NCBI GenBank assembly: GCA_011364925.1
Contig: RDOA01000035.1
Coordinates: 1 to 38,344, forward strand
Origin: Promethearchaeota archaeon
GTDB lineage: Archaea > Asgardarchaeota > Lokiarchaeia > Sigyniarchaeales > SOKP01
Direction of reading: 5' to 3'
Length of the DNA: 38,344 bases
The translations under genes were made by a program, and so were the position numbers. Below, in pieces: positions 8,722 through 25,160 of the stretch. Below the pieces are notes generated by a model, which did not search any database, was not told the origin of the DNA, and saw only the letters and a program-made list of their open reading frames with translations. The stretch's first letter is position 1. The number at the start of each line of letters is the position of its first letter.

Positions 8722-8847
8722 TGTTGAACTAACTATTTATAATTTTGTAACTGTAAAACATAAAAAACAAAATATTAAAAGTTAAATTAGAGTCAAAAAA
8801 TTTTAAAATACTTAGCAGGGATAACCAAGTTGGTCAACGGTGCCGGA

Positions 8848-8876
8848 CTTTTGTGAGAAAAATCTCGCAACACGGA
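8848..8876 (+). other. tRNA-Leu intron 1 (5' side of the anticodon stem)
   Basis: 29 nt. GGA occurs at both borders (8845-8847 and 8874-8876), so the exact boundaries can slide by three bases. It includes a short helix, TGTGAG with CTCGCA. Its removal restores the CCGGA/TCCGG stem. Confidence 0.75.
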
Positions 8877-8882
8877 TTCAAG

Positions 8883-8928
8883 ATCAATATTCAATTTATC
8901 CGTTGATTGACGGAGTTTCTGATGGGAT
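8883..8928 (+). other. tRNA-Leu intron 2 (canonical 37/38 position)
   Basis: 46 nt between G37 and A38. It contains the internal hairpin TCCGT-TGATTG-ACGGA. Removal closes the seven-base anticodon loop TTCAAGA. Confidence 0.75.
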
Positions 8929-8954
8929 ATCCGGTGAGGTAGCTCTACGTGGGT

Positions 8955-9344
8955 TCAAATCCCACTCCCTGTATCGTTTGTTTTACCATTTTGTGATATT
9001 TCATTTAATATTTCTTTTAAAAACGAAATTAGGGGTTTAATAATCTCTTGATCGTTACTTATTGACTTTAAAAAGAGCAACAATAATACGGGGGCGTTGA
9101 AAAAAGAAGATAATTTTTCAACGATTATATTGCTTAAAATTCTCTGTTGTACTCCAAATAATTGATGCGTTGCCGCTGATACTTTTACATTTTCAATTGT
9201 AGGAGGGATTCCTAAAGTCACATTCCCAATACCCATACTTTCCTGGTCAGAAATAAGAACAAGATAACTTTTATGTAATCTAAAAATTGAAACATAAATA
9301 TTTGTTTTATCTAGCTGCTTCGATCTCTCAATAAGCGACTTCAT
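8955..9344 (-). CDS. PAC4-like (proteasome assembly chaperone) small protein
   Basis: 129 residues. The pattern is a beta strand (NIYVSIFRLHKSYLVLIS), then VTLGIPP, then THQLFG, then RILSNIIVEKLSSFFNAPVLLLLFL. It ends in a long helix (PLISFLKEILNEI). This order resembles the PSMG4/PAC4 fold, where a V-x-x-F strand, an [ML]P segment and an xLAxRLxKKxxxxVFVSY block occur. The similarity is from memory and weak, so treat the family as tentative. A PAC2-family protein is encoded at 13698. The last seven codons lie antisense to the 3' end of tRNA-Leu. The gene sits 31 bp upstream of the ADH synthase stop, on the same strand but after it in transcription order. Confidence 0.5.
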   Translation of the reverse strand: MKSLIERSKQLDKTNIYVSIFRLHKSYLVLISDQESMGIGNVTLGIPPTIENVKVSAATHQLFGVQQRILSNIIVEKLSSFFNAPVLLLLFLKSISNDQEIIKPLISFLKEILNEISQNGKTNDTGSGI

Positions 9345-24741: not shown

Positions 24742-24873
24742 ATTTGTTTTAATATAAAGTTTTTTGCTAAATTACCTTATTATTGACTACAATCTAATAT
24801 AGAAATGATTATTAAGCGTTAAATATAACTAAATTTTGCTTATAGAAGAAAAGAAAAAGTAGCGGGGGTTCGA

Positions 24874-24907
24874 CTTTCATTCTGCTGGAACTCAGCAACG
24901 AAAGAAT
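24874..24907 (-). other. Initiator tRNA intron 2 (T loop)
   Basis: 34 nt at about position 59/60. Internal pairing CTTTC/GAAAG and TGCTG/CAGCA gives a hairpin. Removal restores the TTCAAAT loop. Confidence 0.78.
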
Positions 24908-24921
24908 TTTGAACGAACGAC

Positions 24922-24952
24922 TCTGACGCTAGCTCGTAAAAGGGCAAGCGTT
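24922..24952 (-). other. Initiator tRNA intron 1 (variable loop)
   Basis: 31 nt at about position 45/46. ACGCT near its 5' end pairs with AGCGT near its 3' end. Repeats of A and G at the borders allow a shift of one base (a six-base variable loop). Confidence 0.75.
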
Positions 24953-25160
24953 CTCAGGGTTATGAGCCCTGCGGCATAAACCAGGCTAGCCCACCCCGCT
25001 TAGGTTTTTTCTTATGAATACCACACTTGAGTTATAAATCATATAATTAACTTAACTTTTAATTTCTTATTATTTTTAGAAGCGATTGTTGTGGTGTTTT
25101 TTTAGTTTAATATATATTAACTTACAATTATTTAAAATAAACTTATGATAACGAAAAAAA

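Follow-up and report, generated by a model that had tools for sequence, protein, structure and literature searches.

Our analysis of a 38,344-nt stretch of DNA (the window) points, at a probability of about 95%, to this genome's initiator tRNA gene being interrupted by two archaeal bulge-helix-bulge (BHB) introns, which would be removed in cis by a two-subunit splicing endonuclease (EndA) bearing a loop of the Crenarchaea-specific (CSL) type, with subsequent ligation of the exons. As an archaeal gene with BHB introns it is of an ordinary type, found here in an Asgard lineage; what is new, as read from the sequences, is the apparently rapid turnover of introns at one orthologous essential gene and a predicted ‘Crenarchaea-specific’ loop in a Lokiarchaeal EndA. 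Multi-intron tRNA genes, including what is apparently the sole initiator tRNA gene, are thereby extended to Lokiarchaeia, a lineage near the origin of eukaryotes, and are tied there to an EndA with a loop so far called Crenarchaea-specific.

Layout of the gene and its spliced product

The initiator tRNA-Met(CAU) gene runs from 25000 to 24860 on the minus strand; the original prediction had the coordinates right and gave no strand. Exon 1 (24952..25000, 49 nt) comprises the acceptor 5′ strand, the D arm, the intact anticodon arm and positions 44-46, as in the intron-free orthologues. It is followed by intron 1 (24921..24951, 31 nt) in the variable loop at 46/47, exon 2 (24908..24920, 13 nt) with positions 47-59, that is the 5′ strand of the T stem and the T-loop letters UUCAAA, intron 2 (24874..24907, 34 nt) in the T loop at 59/60, and exon 3 (24860..24873, 14 nt), which extends from position 60 to the discriminator A73. 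All of these parts lie on the minus strand, and both introns are missing in orthologues.

The joined exons form a 76-nt sequence in which every letter is the same as in the uninterrupted initiator tRNA of relatives (for example at loci L039 and L066), and the spliced form, in sequence and in fold, displays the anticodon CAU, the A1-U72 pair and three G-C pairs (29-31/39-41) of an initiator tRNA-Met. The claims that the anticodon loop is intact, that 31 nt and 34 nt interrupt the variable loop and the T loop, and that their removal leaves a 76-nt initiator tRNA with the expected pairs were all borne out, the product being equal to the intron-free orthologues. Shifted junctions had been named as a sign against this reading; at the sequence level, the junctions coincide with those implied by the intron-free orthologues.

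No tRNA was reported by ARAGORN for the window, and the Rfam tRNA model gave a sub-threshold match (21.9 bits vs. 29) that fits the 5′ half; multi-intron genes of this kind can escape standard tRNA finders. Upstream, an AT-rich, TATA-box-like stretch, AATTATATGATTTATA (25033..25048, minus strand), is common to sister species in side-by-side upstream sequences and is the presumed promoter, whilst the T-rich stretch TTTTTCTTTTCTTC (24845..24858, minus strand), directly 3′ of the gene, is likely an archaeal terminator. The CCA end is not encoded in exon 3; relatives vary in this respect, some having CCA encoded in the genome behind the initiator tRNA and others, like the window, lacking it.

Splice motifs and covariation

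The order comprises 79 genomes, 53 of which have one initiator tRNA gene with an intact 5′ half and were parsed, the 26 genomes that have none being left out. With inserts at 37/38, 46/47 or 59/60 taken out, each of the 53 parsed genes leaves a tRNA of 76 nt whose T stem has all 5 bp.

At the 59/60 site the T stem provides the outer helix, followed by the bulge AG|U, the helix UUCA:UGAA, the bulge AA|A and the upper helix UUC:GAA. This is a strict hBHBh′ motif, with two 3-nt bulges around a 4-bp helix and flanking helices, the tRNA being restored on removal. Across 24 distinct sequences, 97.9% of cells were paired and 43 double-change cells were counted against a shuffled mean of 10.3, with none of 500 shuffles as high; sliding the partners, as a control, destroyed the pairing.

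The 46/47 intron has the accepted relaxed form of the motif, and its removal likewise restores the tRNA. It possesses a central helix, CUGA:UCAG, the bulges GA|A and AG|U and an upper helix, CGCU:AGCG, and has no outer helix. The 3′ strand of the anticodon stem takes part in the central helix (CUG:CAG, with an additional A-U in the window), so that this stem would have to open in part for the cut. In the eight related sequences on which covariation at this site rests, 87.5% of cells were paired, with 15 double-change cells vs. 4.8 in shuffles (0 of 500 as high). Double changes occurred in seven of seven pairs of the upper helix, and the central helix has three firm pairs, the fourth being A-U in the window and A-G in seven of the eight variable-loop introns.

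Single-sequence folding, on which we do not rely, gives a minimum-free-energy structure of the precursor other than the BHB form; bulge-rich motifs are usually undervalued by this method. Chance is excluded as the source of the arrangement: excision of any inserts leaves 76 nt and an undamaged 5-bp T stem in each of the 53 parsed relatives, and no shuffle reached the covariation seen in the intron helices.

Intron turnover and alternative readings

Intron content differed widely between the 53 genomes: six had no intron, 16 had 37/38 alone, seven 59/60 alone, 15 both 37/38 and 59/60, five (from four genera) the 46/47 and 59/60 combination of the window and four 37/38 with 46/47, whilst none had all three. 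The 46/47 intron was exactly 31 nt long in all nine genomes that carry it. In seven of the 26 unparsed genomes the initiator tRNA was found via its anticodon arm, each time with a D-arm insert, in one genome (G076) in one of two copies only. D-arm introns seem to sit at several different points at seven loci, two of which (L049 and L072) have a T-loop intron besides.

The locus is orthologous, as in 11 of 12 related loci the initiator tRNA gene adjoins, and is divergent from, the same M50-peptidase gene. Species were ordered by a tree of EndA in which 13 of 24 branches are open and support is weak in parts. Four states (none, 37/38, 59/60 and 37/38 with 59/60) occur within a single clade of five close species (SH-aLRT 98), and two sisters (SH-aLRT 99) differ, 46/47 vs. 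59/60. The fewest changes on this tree are seven for 37/38, four for 46/47 and seven for 59/60, counts which are rough because the tree is built from one 200-aa protein and is partly unresolved. These comparisons indicate that the orthologous initiator tRNA gene gains and loses introns quickly among related species; close species that have no intron, one or two among the three sites of the same locus amount to a natural experiment on intron gain and loss.

Two further observations concern single introns. The 59/60 intron at locus L090 (genome G025) reaches 64 nt vs. 31-35 and retains a CTGAATTCCAG hairpin; it is possibly an intron within an intron. In three genomes (G052, G037 and G032) the first 7-10 nt of the 46/47 intron resemble the first nucleotides of the following exon (TCGTTCGTTC), which, among eight related sequences, might be a hint of alternative pairing or of local duplication as its source.

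A broader proposal makes the initiator tRNA of Lokiarchaeia a hot spot at which BHB introns are mobile and cassette-like, such that gain and loss among sisters reflect movement and not loss alone. It draws on the fixed 31 nt at 46/47 and the near-fixed hairpin motif at 59/60, from which selection beyond splicing would follow; we consider it rather unlikely. The introns may also have a role beyond splicing whether or not they move, with the T-loop hairpin binding a protein, guiding modification or controlling processing order, an idea to which we give a low probability. The hairpin motif UG-N3-U-C-CA is almost fixed, its UG:CA pairs and loop U being invariant in the 24 distinct T-loop introns and the following C present in 20, whilst neighbouring stem pairs change with compensation; the constant length of the 46/47 intron speaks for the same idea. 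However, the six intron-free and many single-intron relatives manage without one or both introns, and the motif may follow from common descent alone. Nor did models of either intron reveal a convincing second place in the genome, intron model R1 giving no good second match among the 150 of 5899 first-look candidates that were scored.

Copy number bears on whether the gene is instead a decaying pseudogene with two random insertions, the work being done by another initiator tRNA. The genome is a Lokiarchaeal MAG with 112 contigs and a total of 3.92 Mb, its completeness rated at 100%, and the protein adjoining the initiator tRNA gene matches Candidatus Lokiarchaeota records. Both the 13-nt anticodon-arm core GGGCTCATAACCC (as an exact pattern) and the 34-nt 5′ half of the tRNA occur once. 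A second, uninterrupted initiator tRNA gene, which the original prediction had named as evidence against itself, did not turn up in searches of the 112 contigs with the anticodon-arm pattern, the 5′-half pattern and, by BLAST, the whole mature tRNA. A lone CATAACCCTGAGA match on contig 25 was rejected as a second copy, there being no tRNA around it. An insertion disrupts the T loop, a standard tRNA finder misses the gene and, in a MAG, another copy could sit in an assembly gap; even so, the pseudogene reading is very improbable, given letter-perfect exons, insertions that covary and whose places and length are kept in other genera, and the lack of another copy in a genome rated complete. A further reading is that the tRNA is put together from permuted parts or from parts encoded apart, like the permuted initiator tRNA of Thermofilum and the split one of Nanoarchaeum; the break points of those genes are 37/38 and 59/60 (PMC3218864), the latter also a site here. 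It is refuted by colinearity, the three exons following one another on a single strand in a span of 141 nt, and has virtually no probability left.

The splicing endonuclease and known systems

Two EndA genes are present in the genome, encoding an alpha (200 aa) and a beta (205 aa) subunit. The best PDB sequence match of alpha is the Aeropyrum pernix EndA alpha (3p1z, E 3e-34); by alignment, the catalytic Y141, H149 and K181 are present and a K-P-R loop aligns with the Aeropyrum CSL. K58, P59 and R60 are invariant in 30 alpha sequences from the nearest relatives, and distant members of the order with readable frames keep K-P, followed by R, K or D (one sequence, L198, was set aside from this comparison). 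In beta the catalytic His is missing, as it is in four relatives. The AlphaFold model of alpha has a mean pLDDT of 76, low in loop 51-63, and a structure search with it returned Sulfolobus and Aeropyrum EndA first. A separate catalytic alpha, a non-catalytic beta and a conserved loop lysine are, at the gene level, the marks of a predicted (alpha-beta)2 enzyme of broad specificity with a CSL. The lysine of this loop has been tied to broad EndA specificity (PMC6379350, PMC12397907), in papers whose main texts do not mention Asgard archaea. A broad-specificity endonuclease had been anticipated from the introns, and this predicted pair of subunits fits. The argument that both introns imply it stands for 46/47, which calls for broad specificity because it has no outer helix, and not for 59/60, a strict BHB that might be cut even by a narrow enzyme.

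The processing that we propose would begin with a precursor in which the T stem and UUCA:UGAA form the strict bulge-helix-bulge around 59/60, whilst partial opening of the anticodon stem would allow a relaxed bulge-helix around 46/47. The two-subunit EndA with its CSL-type lysine loop would cut at both sites and an RNA ligase, which from general archaeal knowledge we take to be RtcB, would join the exons into the 76-nt initiator tRNA, to which CCA would be added. We infer that the gene is transcribed and its transcript cut and ligated, as well as the order in which the cuts are made.

Thermoproteales are known to have tRNA genes with more than one intron (PMC4090602, PMC4033280). As in our genome, introns of BHB or relaxed BHB form occupy canonical as well as non-canonical sites in Pyrobaculum and others, several per gene (PMC4090602, PMC4033280, PMC6379350), and these archaea have an (alpha-beta)2 EndA with a lysine loop of the kind predicted here. 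Their sites include 45/46 and 59/60, intron 1 here being at 46/47, and they differ in that the present host is an Asgard archaeon and the initiator tRNA was followed across one orthologous locus. In Atabeyarchaeia and Freyarchaeia, Asgard archaea of a different class that are likewise intron-rich in their tRNA genes, 92-95% of these genes are reported to have introns, often non-canonical, with several in more than half (PMC11291895); as far as excerpts of that account go, it covers neither a Lokiarchaeal initiator tRNA, nor intron turnover between sister species, nor EndA typing. The remark in the original prediction that multiple non-canonical introns are known mainly from Thermoproteales and some other archaea was incomplete, the host being a Lokiarchaeon and cases in other Asgard archaea having been reported in 2024 (PMC11291895). 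Thermofilum pendens (permuted) and Nanoarchaeum equitans (split) share an unusual initiator tRNA layout with breaks at 59/60 or 37/38 (PMC3218864), whereas here the pieces are colinear and would be joined in cis. The EndA of Aeropyrum pernix, an (alpha-beta)2 enzyme with the Crenarchaea-specific loop, shares the aligned K-P-R and the catalytic Tyr/His/Lys with our alpha, which differs in being a predicted Asgard enzyme of 200 aa with a longer N-terminus. Our search of the non-subscription literature found no description of Lokiarchaeal initiator tRNA introns, of their turnover or of a CSL in Lokiarchaeal EndA.

Other tRNA genes of the genome also contain inserts. A tRNA-Leu gene in the window (8815-8973, plus strand) has ca. 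75 nt inserted in its anticodon loop, a layout kept in three sister species; an intron on each side of CAAGA is the best reading of the insert, and the anticodon is probably CAA, the Leu anticodon unseen among the other tRNAs found. Short inserts occur in many further tRNA genes (17 loci), often outside 37/38, including T-loop inserts in two tRNA-Lys genes (L024 and L026).
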